DNA of 64,000 nucleotides from the NCBI RefSeq assembly GCF_000240165.1, contig NC_017586.1, positions 3,224,001 to 3,288,000 of the forward strand, read 5' to 3'. A model generated the notes under the pieces. That model made no database searches, was not told the origin of the DNA, and was given only the letters and a program-made list of their open reading frames with translations. Each line of letters begins with the position of its first letter. The first letter of the stretch is position 1. This DNA is from Streptantibioticus cattleyicolor NRRL 8057 = DSM 46488 (GTDB taxonomy: Bacteria; Actinomycetota; Actinomycetes; Streptomycetales; Streptomycetaceae). Below, piece after piece: positions 3,694-61,735 of the stretch. Made by a program: the position numbers and the translations under genes.

Positions 3694-3702
3694 TTATCCA
3701 CA
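3694..3702. other. Single perfect DnaA box (TTATCCACA)
   Basis: The 9-mer TTATCCACA lies in the divergent region between the DUF5819 gene and paaA, 17 bases upstream of the paaA -35 hexamer. It is isolated, so chance or titration is as likely as regulation. Confidence 0.4.
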
Positions 3703-33612: not shown

Positions 33613-33867
33613 GTGCCGAAGTCACGGATCCGCAAGAAGGCCGACTTCACCCCGCCGCCGGAGAAGACCGCCACCTTCAAACTGCACAGCGGGCGCCGCT
33701 GGGTGGCCCCGCTGATGCTGGCGCTCTTCCTGATCGGCCTGGCGTGGATCGTCATCTTCTACGTCACCACCGGCAGCATGCCGATCGAGTCGTGGGGCAA
33801 CTGGAACATCGTGGTCGGCTTCGGCTTCATCGCCGCGGGGTTCGTGGTCTCCACCCAGTGGAAGTGA
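33613..33867 (+). CDS. crgA: CrgA, cell-division inhibitor/regulator
   Basis: The 84-residue protein has a basic N-terminus ([16 protein letters not shown]) and two membrane helices ([22 protein letters not shown] and [15 protein letters not shown]), the exact CrgA architecture. In Streptomyces CrgA coordinates sporulation septation and inhibits FtsZ-ring formation. In mycobacteria it links FtsZ with FtsQ, FtsI and CwsA. GTG 33613 with GACAGGAGAG upstream. A hairpin follows immediately after the stop. Confidence 0.95.
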
Positions 33868-33889
33868 CCCGGCCGTCACGGGGGCCGGG
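33868..33889 (+). terminator. Short hairpin after crgA
   Basis: CCCGGCC (33868-33874) and GGCCGGG (33883-33889) form a 7-bp stem starting right at the crgA stop codon. Confidence 0.5.
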
Positions 33890-33932
33890 GCGGCGCGGTG
33901 ACCGGAACGCGGTCGTCAACATCGCGCCTCGC

Positions 33933-34050
33933 TTGTCCACAGAGTTATCCACAGGTGGGCCCGGCTGGGGAAAAGGTCGGAAGATCTGTGGATAACCCCT
34001 GTGCGGACAAGCACACGCCGTGCACAACGTTCCCCACGGTCTGTGGATAA
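33933..34050. other. Cluster of DnaA boxes outside oriC
   Basis: Within 118 bases lie TTGTCCACA (33933-33941), TTATCCACA (33945-33953), and on the other strand TTATCCACA at 33987-33995 and 34042-34050, plus TTGTCCGCA (34002-34010). The first two are 3 bases apart in the same orientation. The density equals that of oriC, but no gene for initiation is nearby. S. coelicolor has high-affinity DnaA-box clusters (for example D78) outside oriC that titrate DnaA. This is probably an equivalent. Confidence 0.75.
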
Positions 34051-34080
34051 GTATGAAGAACGGTGGCGTCGCTCGTCCGG

Positions 34081-34929
34081 TCAGTGGTTGATCCGGTACG
34101 TACCGACGACCACCAGCGCCACGATGACCACGGCCACCGCGACGCAGGTGCCCCACTGCACCAGCGCCCGCCGCTCCCGCGGCGCGTGCACCATCCCGAA
34201 GGCCACCACGGCCCCGGTGACCAGGCCGCCGATGTGGGCCCGCCAGTCGATGGTGCCCGTCTGCGCGAACGTGAAGAACAGGTTGAGCACGATGATGGCG
34301 ACGATCGGCCGGGAATCGTACCGCAGCCTGCGCATCAGCACGAACGTCGCGCCCAGCAGCCCGAAGACCGCCCCCGACGCGCCCAGCGAGCCGGCGTTCG
34401 GATTGGCCAGCAGGAACGACAGCGCGCTGCCGCCGAGCGCCGACAGCAGGTAGACGGCGAGGAAGCGGACCCGGCCGAGTGCCACCTCCAGGCCCGGGCC
34501 TATCCACCACAGCGACAGCATGTTGAACCCGATGTGCATCACGTTCTGATGCAGGAACGTCGCGGTCAGCAGCCGGTACCACTGGCCCTCGGCGACCCCG
34601 CTGGTCGGATCCACCGGGGGCCAGGCGCCGTAGAGGATCAGGTCCTGCACCAGCGAGTCGCCCACCGCCTGGACGGCGAGGAAGACGGCCACGTTGATGC
34701 CGATGAGGATCATGGTGATCAGCCGGGGGTTGGCCGCCACCGCCCCGCCGGTCATGGTGCGGGGCCGCTGCGCCTGCCGCTCCGGCCGCGCCTGGCCGAC
34801 GCACTCCGGGCACTGGAAGCCGACCGACGCGCTGACCATGCACTCCGGGCATATCGGCCGCTCGCAGCGCGAGCAGCGCACCCCGGTCTCGCGATCCTGG
34901 TGCCGGTAGCAGCAGACCGCCTGCTCCAT
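34081..34929 (-). CDS. Rhomboid-family intramembrane serine protease
   Basis: The 282-residue protein has an N-terminal B-box-like zinc finger (CCYRHQDRETGVRCSRCERPICPECM... CPEC), then a six-helix rhomboid core with HQNVMHIGFNMLSLWWIG, catalytic Ser in GASGAVFG and catalytic His in WRAHIGGLVTG. It cleaves membrane proteins within the bilayer, and its substrates are unknown. ATG 34929. Its stop lies 31 bases from the DnaA-box cluster. Confidence 0.93.
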   Translation of the reverse strand: MEQAVCCYRHQDRETGVRCSRCERPICPECMVSASVGFQCPECVGQARPERQAQRPRTMTGGAVAANPRLITMILIGINVAVFLAVQAVGDSLVQDLILYGAWPPVDPTSGVAEGQWYRLLTATFLHQNVMHIGFNMLSLWWIGPGLEVALGRVRFLAVYLLSALGGSALSFLLANPNAGSLGASGAVFGLLGATFVLMRRLRYDSRPIVAIIVLNLFFTFAQTGTIDWRAHIGGLVTGAVVAFGMVHAPRERRALVQWGTCVAVAVVIVALVVVGTYRINH

Positions 34930-57278: not shown

Positions 57279-58409
57279 TCAGCCCGACAGCCGCACCGGC
57301 ATGATCAGGTACTTGTAGCTCTCCACGGCCTCGGCGTCCACGGCCGGCTTGCCGCTGAGCAGCGCGGGCTTGGTGGAGGTGGTGAAGGAGAGCTGGGCCA
57401 CCGGCGAGTCGATCGCGCTCAGGCCGTCCAGCAGGAACGTCGGGTTGAAGGCGATGGAGATGTCGTCGCCCTCCAGGTGGGCGTCGACCCTTTCCACAGC
57501 CTGTGCGTCGTCGCTGGAGCCCGCCTCCAGGGTGAGCACGCCCTCGGTGAAGCTCAGCCGGATCGGGGTGTTGCGCTCGGCCACCAGGGCGACACGCTTG
57601 ACGGCCTCCACGAAGGGGGCGGTCTCGATCACGGCGACGGAGGCGAACTCGGTCGGGAAAAGTGTGCGGTACTTCGGCAGGTCGCCCTCGAGGAGGCGGG
57701 TGGTGGTGCGGCGGCCGGCGCCCTCGAAGCCGATCAGGCCCTCGCCGGCGCCCGAGCCGGACAGCGCCAGCGAGACGGTGTCGCCGCCGGTGAGCGCCTT
57801 GGCGGTGTCGAGCAGGGTCTTGGCCGGGACCAGGGCGACCGCGGAGAGGTCGGGGGTCTCCGGCTTCCACAGGAACTCGCGGACGGCGAACCGGTAGCGG
57901 TCGGTGGCGGCCAGGGTGACGGTGTCGCCCTCGATCTCGATGCGCACACCGGTCAGCACGGGCAGCGTGTCGTCACGGCCGGCGGCCACCGCGACCTGGG
58001 AGACGGCGGCGGCGAAGACCTCGCCGGGGACGGTGCCGGAGGCGGTCGGCATCTGGGGCAGCGCGGGGTACTCCTCCACAGGCAGGGTGTGGAGTGTGAA
58101 TCGCGAGCTGCCGCAGACCACGGTGACCCGGACGCCGTCGGTGGCGATCTCCACCGGACGGTTGGGCAGCGCGCGGGAGATGTCGGCGAGCAGGCGGCCG
58201 GAGACGAGGACGGTGCCCTCCTCGTCGACGTCCGCGTCCACCGAGACCCGGGCGGAGACCTCGTAGTCGAAGGCGGACAGGCTCAGCTGGCCGTCCTCGG
58301 CCTTCAGCAGCAGGCCGGCGAGCACGGGCGCCGGCGGGCGGGCCGGGAGACTGCGGGCCGCCCAGGCCACTGCCTCCGCGAGTACGTCGCGTTCCACCCG
58401 GAACTTCAC
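57279..58409 (-). CDS. dnaN: DNA polymerase III beta subunit (sliding clamp)
   Basis: The 376-residue protein has three clamp folds. It begins MKFRVERDVLAEAVAWAARSLPARPPAPVLAGLLL and ends with the clamp-typical YKYLIMPVRLSG. GTG 58409 is chosen because AGGAGG lies 7 bases upstream. Longer readings have Gln-rich shadow-like N-termini. It tethers the replicative polymerase. It is the first gene left of oriC on the minus strand. Confidence 0.97.
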   Translation of the reverse strand: MKFRVERDVLAEAVAWAARSLPARPPAPVLAGLLLKAEDGQLSLSAFDYEVSARVSVDADVDEEGTVLVSGRLLADISRALPNRPVEIATDGVRVTVVCGSSRFTLHTLPVEEYPALPQMPTASGTVPGEVFAAAVSQVAVAAGRDDTLPVLTGVRIEIEGDTVTLAATDRYRFAVREFLWKPETPDLSAVALVPAKTLLDTAKALTGGDTVSLALSGSGAGEGLIGFEGAGRRTTTRLLEGDLPKYRTLFPTEFASVAVIETAPFVEAVKRVALVAERNTPIRLSFTEGVLTLEAGSSDDAQAVERVDAHLEGDDISIAFNPTFLLDGLSAIDSPVAQLSFTTSTKPALLSGKPAVDAEAVESYKYLIMPVRLSG

Positions 58410-58560
58410 CGGAACCGCCTCCTGCTGTTGCTGGCTGTCTGTGCCAGGCCGTCCTGCGGCCTTCTGCGTCCTTACGGCCATCTGCCGGAGAACAGTCTGA
58501 CGCACACCACCGACAACGGATGCGGTTCCGGGTCAAGCCCGGGCGTCCACCCGAGGGCGG

Positions 58561-59140
58561 CCCGCGGCTCGGTTGTGCACAGGCCCCACTTCGATCTTGG
58601 CTTCCCGGACTCTATGTGTAGTCGTAGTAATAGGGGTTGTGGATACCGTGGATAACCGGTTCCGCCGCAGGTCAGCCCAGGTTTTTTATCCACCGGGCCT
58701 GTGGGTGGCGGCGGTGGACAACCCGGGTCCGCTGTGGACAGCCGGAAGTTGTGCACACCCCATACACAGGGAGAGGGCAGTTCTCCCCATCGTTGTCCCC
58801 AGGAATACCCAGGTTCTCCCCAGCCCAACCCACCCCCTGGGTGTGACGCCTTTCACTCCATCCGGCGATGGGGGGTGGCGAGTTGCCGAACAGTGGACAG
58901 CGCTGTGGAGAAGCTGTGGGTAACCGCCCGGACCCTGTGGGCAGCCGGTGGACAACGCTCGGCGCGGGTTGTGGGCGAAGTGGTTGTCCACAGGCTGTGG
59001 AGAACCTTTTCCCACAATTCCACACCCCGCTGACCTGCGATGATCCTTCCGTCGCCATCCCCCTTGTGGAGGGGGTCGGGACAACTTCGTCCTCCCCAGC
59101 CTGTGGATGGCGGATCGGCGGCGAACCTGTGGAGCAGTGT
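58561..59140. other. Chromosomal replication origin oriC
   Basis: The dnaN-dnaA intergenic region is packed with DnaA boxes. Perfect TTGTCCACA lies at 58984-58992. Near matches include 58573, 58638, 58647, 58686, 58713, 58733, 58749, 58793, 58904, 58915, 58947, 58996 and 59127, in both orientations. An AT-richer patch (TTTTTTATC, 58682-58690) lies within it. Streptomyces oriC has about 19 boxes, many non-consensus, in the same place. No gene is present. Confidence 0.95.
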
Positions 59141-59242
59141 GCCGCCGGAGGGTGAATTCGAACAGCGGGTGTGGACGTGTCGGGGCGGCGGAACGGGCGC
59201 GGACGGCCCGGCCCTCCGGGCGCGCACGGCGAGGAGGACGCC

Positions 59243-59276
59243 GCAGGCCCCCGGAAGACGCCTTCCGGGGGCCTGC
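59243..59276 (-). terminator. dnaA terminator
   Basis: GCAGGCCCCCGGAAG (59243-59257) and CTTCCGGGGGCCTGC (59262-59276) form a perfect 15-bp stem with loop ACGC, 50 bases after the dnaA stop. It separates dnaA transcription from oriC. Confidence 0.85.
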
Positions 59277-59325
59277 GGGGACGCGTACGGGGCCCGTGGA
59301 GCCGGGGACGGGGCCGTTGCGGCGG

Positions 59326-61179
59326 TCAGCTCTTGATGCGGTTGGTCAGCTCGGTGACCTGGTTGTAGATGGACCGCCGCTCGGCCATCAGGGCGCGGAT
59401 CTTGCGGTCGGCGTGCATCACCGTGGTGTGGTCGCGGCCCCCGAAGAGGGCGCCGATCTTCGGCAGCGACAGGTCGGTCAGCTCCCGGCACAGGTACATG
59501 GCGATCTGCCGCGCGGTCACCAGCACCCGGCTGCGGGAGGAACCGCACAGGTCCTCCACGGTGAGCCCGAAGTACGCGGCGGTCTCCGCCATGATCGCGT
59601 TGCCGGAGATCTCCGGTACCGCGTCCTCGCCGCCCGGGATCAGGTCCTTCAGGACGATCTCGGTCAGCTGGAGGTCCACCGGCTGGCGGTTGAGGCTGGC
59701 GAACGCGGTGACCCGGATCAGCGCCCCCTCCAGCTCGCGGATGTTGCGCGAGATCCGGGAGGCGATGAACTCCAGCACCTCCGGCGGGGCGTTGAGCTGC
59801 TCCTGCACCGCCTTCTTGCGCAGGATGGCGATCCGGGTCTCCAGCTCGGGCGGCTGGACGTCGGTGATCAGGCCCCACTCGAAGCGGTTGCGCAGCCGGT
59901 CCTCCAGGGTCACCAGCTGCTTGGGCGGCCGGTCCGAGGAGAGCACGATCTGCTTGTTGGCGTTGTGCAGGGTGTTGAAGGTGTGGAAGAACTCCTCCTG
60001 CGTCGACTCCTTGCTCGCCAGGAACTGGATGTCGTCGACCAGCAGGATGTCCATCTCGCGGTAGCGCTTGCGGAACGCGTCGCCCTTGCCGTCGCGGATG
60101 GAGTTGATGAACTCGTTGGTGAACTCCTCCGAGCTGACGTACCGCACCCGGGTGCCCGGGTACAGGCTGCGGGCGTAGTGCCCGATCGCGTGCAGCAGGT
60201 GGGTCTTGCCCAGCCCTGACTCGCCGTAGATGAACAGCGGGTTGTACGCCTTGGCGGGGGCTTCGGCGACGGCCACCGCGGCGGCGTGCGCGAAGCGGTT
60301 GGAGGCGCCGATGACGAAGGTGTCGAAGAGGTACTTGGGGTTGAGCCGGGCGGTCGGCTCGCCGGGGCCGGGCGCCGGGGCCGGCTGCGCGGCGAGCGGG
60401 CCGGGGGCGCCGCTGGACGCCGGGAGCGCGTCGGCCGGCCGGACCCCGCCACCGGGGCGCTCGGGCGGCTGCGGCGCCGGGTAACCCGTCTGCTGGCCGT
60501 AGTCGGGCTGCCCGAACTCCTGCTGGGTGTACTCCTGTTGCTGCCCGTGCTGGCCGTACTCCTGCTGCTGGCCGTAGTCGCGCTGGCCGCCGCCGTACGG
60601 GTCGCGGTCGGGGTAACCGCCGCGCCGGGGCTGCTGCCAGGCGTCGGTGCCCTCGGGTCCGCCGTGGCCGTGCTCCTGCGGGCGGCCGTGGGCGTACGGG
60701 TCGGAGTGGGCCGGGGGCGGCCAGCCGCCGGACTCGTGGCCGGAGGGGTAGTCGGGGTACGCCCGGCGGATCACCGGACCGTCCTCCGCGGAACGCGGGT
60801 AGTCCTCGTAGTCGCGGCGCTGCTCGGCGTAGCGCCCCGGGGCCGGGGCGGGCGGCTGCTGGGGCGCGGGCTGCCGGTCGGCGGCGGGGGCCTGCGGGGC
60901 CGCGGCGGCCGTGCTGGAGTCCACGGTGATCGCGATGCGGATCGGGCGGCCGAACTCCCGGGTCAGCCCCTCGGTGATCACCGGCAGCAGCCGGCCCTCC
61001 AGGACGCCCTTGGCGTACTCGTTGGGCGCGGCCAGCAACGCGGTGTCGGCCACCAGCGCCAGCGCCTGGCAGGCCTTGAGCCACCGCTGGTCCTTGGCCT
61101 CGACACCCTGGCCGTCGGCGAGGAGGTGATCCAGCACACGCGGCCACACTGCGGCAAGATCGGCAGTTACATCAGCCAC
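59326..61179 (-). CDS. dnaA: Chromosomal replication initiator DnaA
   Basis: The 617-residue protein has domain I (about 1-90; [32 protein letters not shown]), then a very long disordered domain II (about 95-270) rich in Pro, Gln, Tyr and Gly with QQQEYGQ-like repeats. The AAA+ domain III has [13 protein letters not shown] and [13 protein letters not shown]. Domain IV has the DnaA-box-binding [15 protein letters not shown]. The enlarged domain II is typical of Streptomyces. GTG 61179. It initiates replication at the adjacent oriC and is probably autoregulated through the box at 61342. Confidence 0.98.
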
Positions 61180-61735
61180 AGTGCACGCTCTCTCGCTTGA
61201 TCGTCGACTCGCTGGTGGAAATGGCCCGCCCGTGGGATGCGAAGGGCGCCGAGGTGTCCCGCGAAGGGGTGGTTCTGCGAATAGATGGGGGATTGCAGAG
61301 TTCAGCCACGGTAGTCAGCGCGCCGCGCGCGGTTCAAGTCGTTGTCCACAGGGTGTGTACAAATGTGCCACGGGAGCGCCCGCGATGCGTCCCCAGGGGG
61401 CGGCGGCCCCCTTCGCGGGAGGGAACGGGCTGGTCAGCCACGCCGTCTAGGGCGCCGGTACGGGCGCCGGGAAGGCCCGCAATGGTACGGTCGGGCGGCC
61501 TGCCGGGGCCCTGGACGGGCTCGGTTTGACCGGATGGCGTAGCCGCGCGTACCGTGACGAGGTCGAGTTGTCGATGGCTGCTGCCGCCTGCCTGTCGAAG
61601 GGCACAGGTCACCCCGGGTGAGCTGGACAAGCGGTACACCTAGGGCGGACGCGAGCTTCGTGGGCGCACGGTGACAGCCAAGCGACGCCCCACACCTCGT
61701 CTTTCCAAGACGACAAGCATTCCTGGAGTCCCCGA
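61180..61735. promoter_or_regulatory. dnaA-rpmH divergent promoter region
   Basis: No gene lies in these 556 bases. A perfect DnaA box TTGTCCACA at 61342-61350 fits dnaA autoregulation, as shown for Streptomyces dnaA. The rpmH promoter must lie toward the right end. No clear -35/-10 pair is assigned. The stretch 61440-61560 is GC-rich without repeats. Confidence 0.55.

Follow-up and report, generated by a model that had tools for sequence, protein, structure and literature searches.

The 64,000-nucleotide stretch of the Streptantibioticus cattleyicolor NRRL 8057 genome analyzed here (the window) contains a cluster of DnaA boxes between crgA, which encodes the cell division protein CrgA, and a convergent gene for a rhomboid protease. 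We find that this cluster belongs to an element located directly behind crgA across the phylum Actinomycetota, and that an experimentally identified DnaA site in mycobacteria is one instance of the same element. We see about an even chance that the element represents an ancient, structured DnaA-control locus outside the origin, comparable to Escherichia coli datA or the DnaA-reactivating sequences (DARS), and not a plain sponge for DnaA or a promoter element. In the open-licence literature we found no earlier description of a phylum-wide link between crgA and DnaA boxes; apart from one mycobacterial paper (PMC7738170), crgA and a DnaA box are merely mentioned together there.

The window is rich in the strict motif TTRTCCACA (an exact box), with 7 occurrences against 0.16 expected and none of 100 shuffles reaching 7. 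Over both contigs of the 8,095,515-base genome there are 53 exact boxes, and nowhere else do four lie within 118 bp, making the crgA cluster the densest group. A preliminary description of this DNA had reported five boxes in 118 bp between crgA and the rhomboid gene, and these are present as four exact boxes and one TTGTCCGCA box. Its other two statements about the cluster itself also hold: the distance to oriC, given as 25 kb, is 24.5 kb, and the crgA-side boxes match or exceed the quality of most oriC boxes, because oriC has one exact box and six others with one mismatch to TTATCCACA. Several high-quality boxes, starting 66–175 bp past the crgA stop and hence within about 200 bp of it, thus share a short non-coding stretch at a frequency above chance, as expected of a DnaA-box cluster outside oriC.

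Conservation behind crgA

For comparison within the family, we retained the best 80 of the 410 relatives that a CrgA scan of named genomes yielded; with 30 further loci and the window, the set comprises 111 loci, nearly all from Streptomycetaceae. The first 450 bp past the stop codon of crgA, 49,950 bp in all, contain 357 exact boxes, compared with 7 in 690,396 bp of flanking sequence, and 110 of the 111 loci have at least two boxes in this interval. Only L008 does not; there, extra DNA places the four boxes at 671 to 893 bp. The preliminary description had named a lack of conservation at this position in relatives as what would speak against the cluster; the position is clearly conserved. The usual order in the family is one or two boxes on the + strand (12 bp apart; boxes 1 and 2 in Table 1), a weak − strand box GGGGAAAA, a − strand box within GATCTGTGGATAAC (box 3), and a distant − strand box (box 4). 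A tandem at 12–13 bp like that of boxes 1 and 2 is found in 27 loci of this comparison, GGGGAAAA in 78 of the 111, TGTGGATAA from the box 3 context (on either strand) in 109, and TGCACAA, from the motif ahead of box 4, in 62.

The same pattern extends well beyond the family. CrgA is present in 80 of 80 genomes of the order and 116 of 118 of the class, and we assembled a class set of 100 loci outside Streptomycetaceae, from the rest of the order and class. Here the boxes form a single sharp peak in the first 200 bp past the crgA stop (250 boxes when up to one mismatch is allowed), and exact boxes number 100 in the 19,893 bp after the stop compared with 18 in 394,741 bp of flanks. At least one box occurs in 94 of the 100 loci and at least two in 82, and 31 of 34 families have a box. 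The search for CrgA also matched 45 genomes from the phylum's other classes; 24 of the 32 loci examined there have a box within 200 bp past the stop, with 52 boxes in 6,400 bp versus 19 in 108,079 bp of flanks (exact boxes, 18 versus 0). Across the three sets, enrichment after the crgA stop relative to the flanks is about 40- to 700-fold.

Rhomboid is the convergent neighbor in 59 of the 100 class loci; in the remainder rhomboid is more distant or a different gene stands in between, and the boxes are still right behind crgA. In the other-class loci, tblastn with the rhomboid and PpiA proteins of the window gave no match, a search that could miss distant homologs. The boxes therefore travel with crgA and not with rhomboid, and the linkage is phylum-wide. 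It is also a linkage near the origin: in 37 of 40 genomes searched for dnaA, crgA and dnaA are 13–132 kb apart (by subtraction, three of the distances being read across the contig start of a contig taken as circular), and in G238, from another class, the distance is about 38 kb.

A few loci depart from the usual arrangement. In L008, about 640 bp of GC-rich DNA (0–670 bp past crgA) separates the gene from an otherwise intact cluster. Six genomes of family f24 (G136, G166, G177, G189, G207, and G216) have two adjacent CrgA matches, apparently in one frame, and 2 of the 4 f24 loci examined are without boxes. Seven genomes of one genus in family f3 (G042, G043, G045, G047, G049, G055, and G059) encode a second, distant CrgA paralog.

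Spacing, palindrome, and helical phase

Pairs of boxes in the class set have preferred distances, 12–13 bp for tandem pairs and 10–11, 23–24, and 31 bp for inverted pairs; inverted pairs in the other classes are 11–13 bp apart. The module (+)12/13(+)10/11(−) is frequent in the class. Alongside the boxes is a palindrome, TNACA-N4-TGTNA, found exactly in 34 of 100 class, 8 of 32 other-class, and 5 of 111 Streptomycetaceae loci, with 35, 10, and 5 exact matches compared with 2, 1, and 0 in the respective flanks. Allowing up to one mismatch, it is present in 64, 16, and 69 loci of these sets. Where the Streptomycetaceae palindrome lies within 30 bp of box 3 (67 cases), it is always 12 or 13 bp past that box.

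Two candidate owners of the palindrome were discarded by comparison with their consensus sequences: BldD, because the spacing is 5 and not 6, and Crp/GlxR, because the half-sites are reversed. The strict palindrome TNACACNNGTGTNA occurs 0–3 times per genome compared with 0–2 for a reversed-pattern control, so that no regulon is evident.

The distance from box 3 to box 4 was collected from 394 family genomes in two pattern scans, which matched 23 and 62 genomes. The main class is 145–150 bp; the shorter and longer distances fall at 111–115, 124–127, 135–136, 154–164, 167–169, and 177–179 bp, where twelve values of 127 bp from one genus were counted once. The distinct distances are phased (R 0.49, p 0.00025 for random placement in the scanned ranges), as are the run centers including the main class (p 0.0076); the best-fitting period is close to 10.7 bp. 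The spacing between these boxes thus shifts by steps of one helical turn. We dropped the distances between boxes 2 and 3 (29–33 or 42–44) as a one-turn change: in the loci inspected the strong box occupies either 12-bp register, and these distances reflect that register and were therefore excluded from the phasing evidence.

The mycobacterial counterpart

In four class loci (L148, L149, L151, and L152), ppiA is a near neighbor, a TCACA-N4-TGTGA palindrome lies 73–74 bp past crgA, and a TTATCCACA box lies 111–112 bp past it; we take this gene order to be that of mycobacteria. The M. tuberculosis region between Rv0010c and Rv0011c is reported among the five regions that DnaA binds most in vitro, with binding confirmed by gel shift, and chromatin immunoprecipitation sequencing in M. 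smegmatis recovers homologs of the five (PMC7738170). Rv0011c is crgA (PMC3989709). As described, the site resembles the element in lying directly past crgA with a cluster of DnaA-like boxes and a small palindrome (PMC7738170); it differs in its downstream gene, and the window copy has several exact boxes and no palindrome. The published palindrome is probably the TNACA-N4-TGTNA motif found here.

The palindrome of the mycobacterial site is repeatedly altered in clinical strains, and engineered changes give longer cells, resembling those of weak dnaA alleles, and lower isoniazid susceptibility (PMC7738170). The authors saw no obvious correspondence of the site in other species (PMC7738170). 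Through our comparison, this experimentally found and unexplained site becomes one case of an element that spans the phylum and whose anatomy can be read, so that its function is open to study in harmless, tractable species such as Streptomyces or Corynebacterium glutamicum. It also provides a comparative framework for a site under selection in tuberculosis. How actinobacteria limit replication to one round per cycle is, to our knowledge, still largely an open question.

Possible function and alternatives

Preferred spacing, phasing, and the palindrome together favor an ordered complex. DnaA would bind the strong boxes and then spread to weak ones, in a fixed geometry of tandem boxes 12–13 bp apart with an inverted box 10–11 bp beyond, a distant box in helical phase, and usually a palindrome that may receive a further DnaA unit or some other protein as partner. 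Such a complex may act on the cellular DnaA pool through availability and probably also through the ATP/ADP state, and would thereby help keep replication in step with growth and division. Its closeness to oriC means that the element would be doubled soon after each initiation. For the copy in the window, we infer that DnaA binds in this species and that the complex acts on the DnaA pool, as well as the sign of its effect. The mycobacterial site would support DnaA rather than drain it, provided that the clinical changes are losses of function. A more ambitious reading, which we hold only tentatively, is that a single locus, already in place early in Actinomycetota, sets the activity state of DnaA, as a DARS-like activator or datA-like switch built from phased boxes and a palindromic partner site, that it couples replication to division beside crgA, and that its palindrome is the one altered in M. 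tuberculosis clinical strains.

Known systems offer partial parallels. In E. coli, loss of DARS1/DARS2 gives larger cells in slow growth, and datA, whose loss gives more origins, is likewise a non-coding DnaA-box cluster with conserved spacing that controls DnaA (PMC4585315). However, datA requires IHF, with which it promotes hydrolysis of DnaA-ATP, and DARS, which promotes release of ADP from DnaA and has a core of three boxes at fixed spacing, has no sequence link to the element, whose frequent module in the class is (+)12/13(+)10/11(−). Several DnaA-box clusters near oriC of Bacillus subtilis, reportedly described by Okumura in 2012 and, according to a citing source, held to restrain initiation, are similar in number and location. 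We know of no conserved link of those clusters to one gene, in which they differ from the crgA element.

Several observations weigh against a structured DnaA-control locus. Six of the 100 class loci (L115, L156, L179, L183, L203, and L204) and 8 of the 32 other-class loci have no box. The window copy has no TNACA-N4-TGTNA palindrome past box 3, although this palindrome is exact in the relatives L005 and L006; also missing is most of the DNA that usually separates box 3 from box 4, the distance being 55 bp compared with 145–150 bp in 66 of 105 loci and off the helical lattice. The initiation rate of the M. tuberculosis mutants is reported as unchanged (PMC7738170). Finally, nothing obliges a locus that works on the DnaA pool to remain next to a single gene, and the model alone therefore leaves the phylum-wide crgA linkage unexplained.

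The main rival is plain titration, in which a high-affinity sink, of the kind of S. coelicolor D78 or the B. subtilis clusters, lowers free DnaA once duplicated and no nucleotide-state chemistry is involved; we consider it a credible but minority possibility. Consensus-quality boxes near oriC suit a sink, as does the location of 19 of the 53 genomic TTRTCCACA sites within about 135 kb of oriC; E. coli likewise has an origin-proximal density of boxes (PMC12371093), and clusters in B. subtilis and S. coelicolor are described as counterparts of datA, keeping initiation from occurring at the wrong time (PMC10950094). Yet a sponge requires neither fixed spacing, nor a palindrome, nor a link to a single gene, and the altered M. 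tuberculosis sites look like weak dnaA alleles and not like excess DnaA (PMC7738170); the unchanged initiation rate speaks against titration too. Setting the long mycobacterial cells against the repressive clusters of S. coelicolor and B. subtilis, we favor a structured locus of either sign. An effect confined to the locus, in which bound DnaA obstructs transcription from the convergent or antisense direction or determines where the crgA mRNA ends at its 3′ side and so ties septation to the DnaA level, would account for boxes that remain with crgA across classes despite differing neighbors, and crgA does function in division (PMC3989709). We nevertheless find it unlikely, given that the boxes are downstream of crgA and mostly between convergent genes, and neither flanking gene of the M. 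tuberculosis site is reported as altered in expression in dnaA mutants (PMC7738170). The coupling to septation raised in the preliminary description is thus supported only in part. A link to division is plausible because crgA adjacency is phylum-wide, also without rhomboid, and altered M. tuberculosis sites lengthen cells (PMC7738170), whereas direct control of crgA is unsupported because the boxes are at its 3′ end and the mycobacterial neighbors keep their expression.

Bound DnaA could instead organize or position the origin region without regulating initiation. Closeness to oriC in the 37 genomes where it was readable and a helical phasing that suits looping are compatible with this, but the mycobacterial phenotype tracks dnaA alleles (PMC7738170), and we judge a structural role improbable. 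More doubtful still is an RNA hairpin or terminator, with the inverted boxes as arms of a structured 3′ untranslated region. The intergenic RNA does fold better than shuffles (z −4.08), and among 44 inverted pairs at 10–11 bp the arms agree at position 3 in 25 cases compared with 14.3 by chance (0 of 2000 shuffles); reduced to 25 distinct pair types, however, agreement is 11 versus 8.4 (p 0.16), and position 7 is also not above chance. In addition, no T-run terminator match lies in 33700–34300, no Rfam match exceeds the gathering score, boxes in tandem could not form a stem together, and phasing by helical turns is characteristic of DNA; we rejected this reading. A promoter of rhomboid or crgA was ruled out as well, because the boxes lie between the 3′ ends of the two genes and 33700–34300 has no promoter-like match.

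The locus in the window

The closest named CrgA relatives of the window protein are from Streptantibioticus species. The boxes conserved in position are the four exact ones and the weak ones; the TTGTCCGCA box was not seen in the Streptomycetaceae relatives inspected. Features of the locus and the region used for comparison are given in Table 1.

Table 1. The crgA–rhomboid region and oriC in window coordinates
Feature	Coordinates	Strand	Basis or remark
crgA, cell division protein CrgA, 84 amino acids	33613..33867	+	Pfam PF06781, E 4.3e-29
Intergenic region with DnaA element, convergent crgA/rhomboid	33868..34080	.	Open reading frame coordinates
DnaA box 1, TTGTCCACA	33933..33941	+	Exact match; box 2 follows 12 bp on
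DnaA box 2, TTATCCACA	33945..33953	+	Exact match; conserved in relatives
Weak DnaA-like box, TTTTCCCCA on − strand	33966..33974	-	21 bp ahead of box 3
DnaA box 3, TTATCCACA, conserved context GATCTGTGGATAAC	33987..33995	-	Exact match
TTGTCCGCA box, one mismatch	34002..34010	-	Sequence; apparently lineage-particular
Weak box TTGTGCACG, within conserved TGTGCACAA-like motif ahead of box 4	34019..34027	-	Sequence
DnaA box 4, TTATCCACA	34042..34050	-	Exact match; 55 bp past box 3
Rhomboid protease, convergent neighbor	34081..34929	-	Pfam PF01694, E 1.2e-35
oriC region, between dnaN (57279-58505) and dnaA (59326-61179)	58506..59325	.	For comparison

Two exact boxes stand apart from these groups. 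A single TTGTCCACA at 61342–61350, upstream of dnaA, is expected for DnaA autoregulation, and an exact TTATCCACA at 3694–3702 stands alone, outside clusters.

A second cluster near oriC

A 2006 study of S. coelicolor reportedly described the oriC-flanking DnaA-box clusters H69, H24, and D78 (cited in PMC10950094), which resemble the crgA cluster in being DnaA boxes that lie near the origin of a streptomycete chromosome but not within oriC. The preliminary description proposed the crgA cluster as the equivalent of D78, for which we find no support: a second cluster, conserved among Streptomyces genomes between pheA and serS and also present in this genome (C2:3173317–3173638; L243:2318–2639), is the better candidate. 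Its orthologs in G008 and G032 hold more boxes, and in G008 roughly 96 kb separate the cluster from dnaA, with crgA on the other side of dnaA. Going by cosmid names, D78 is probably this pheA–serS cluster, and the crgA cluster may correspond to H69.

Two regions that only some 9 kb separate in G008 (L247) lie on opposite flanks of oriC in the present genome (L243 and L245; C2:3173 kb to 3377 kb), an arrangement that points to an inversion around oriC. A third inverted pair of boxes, with 25 bp between box starts, is common to several Streptomyces (L247:11984–12037, L248:2887–2940, and L249:2795–2848); in L247 it lies near an ABC-transporter gene and a short-chain dehydrogenase gene.
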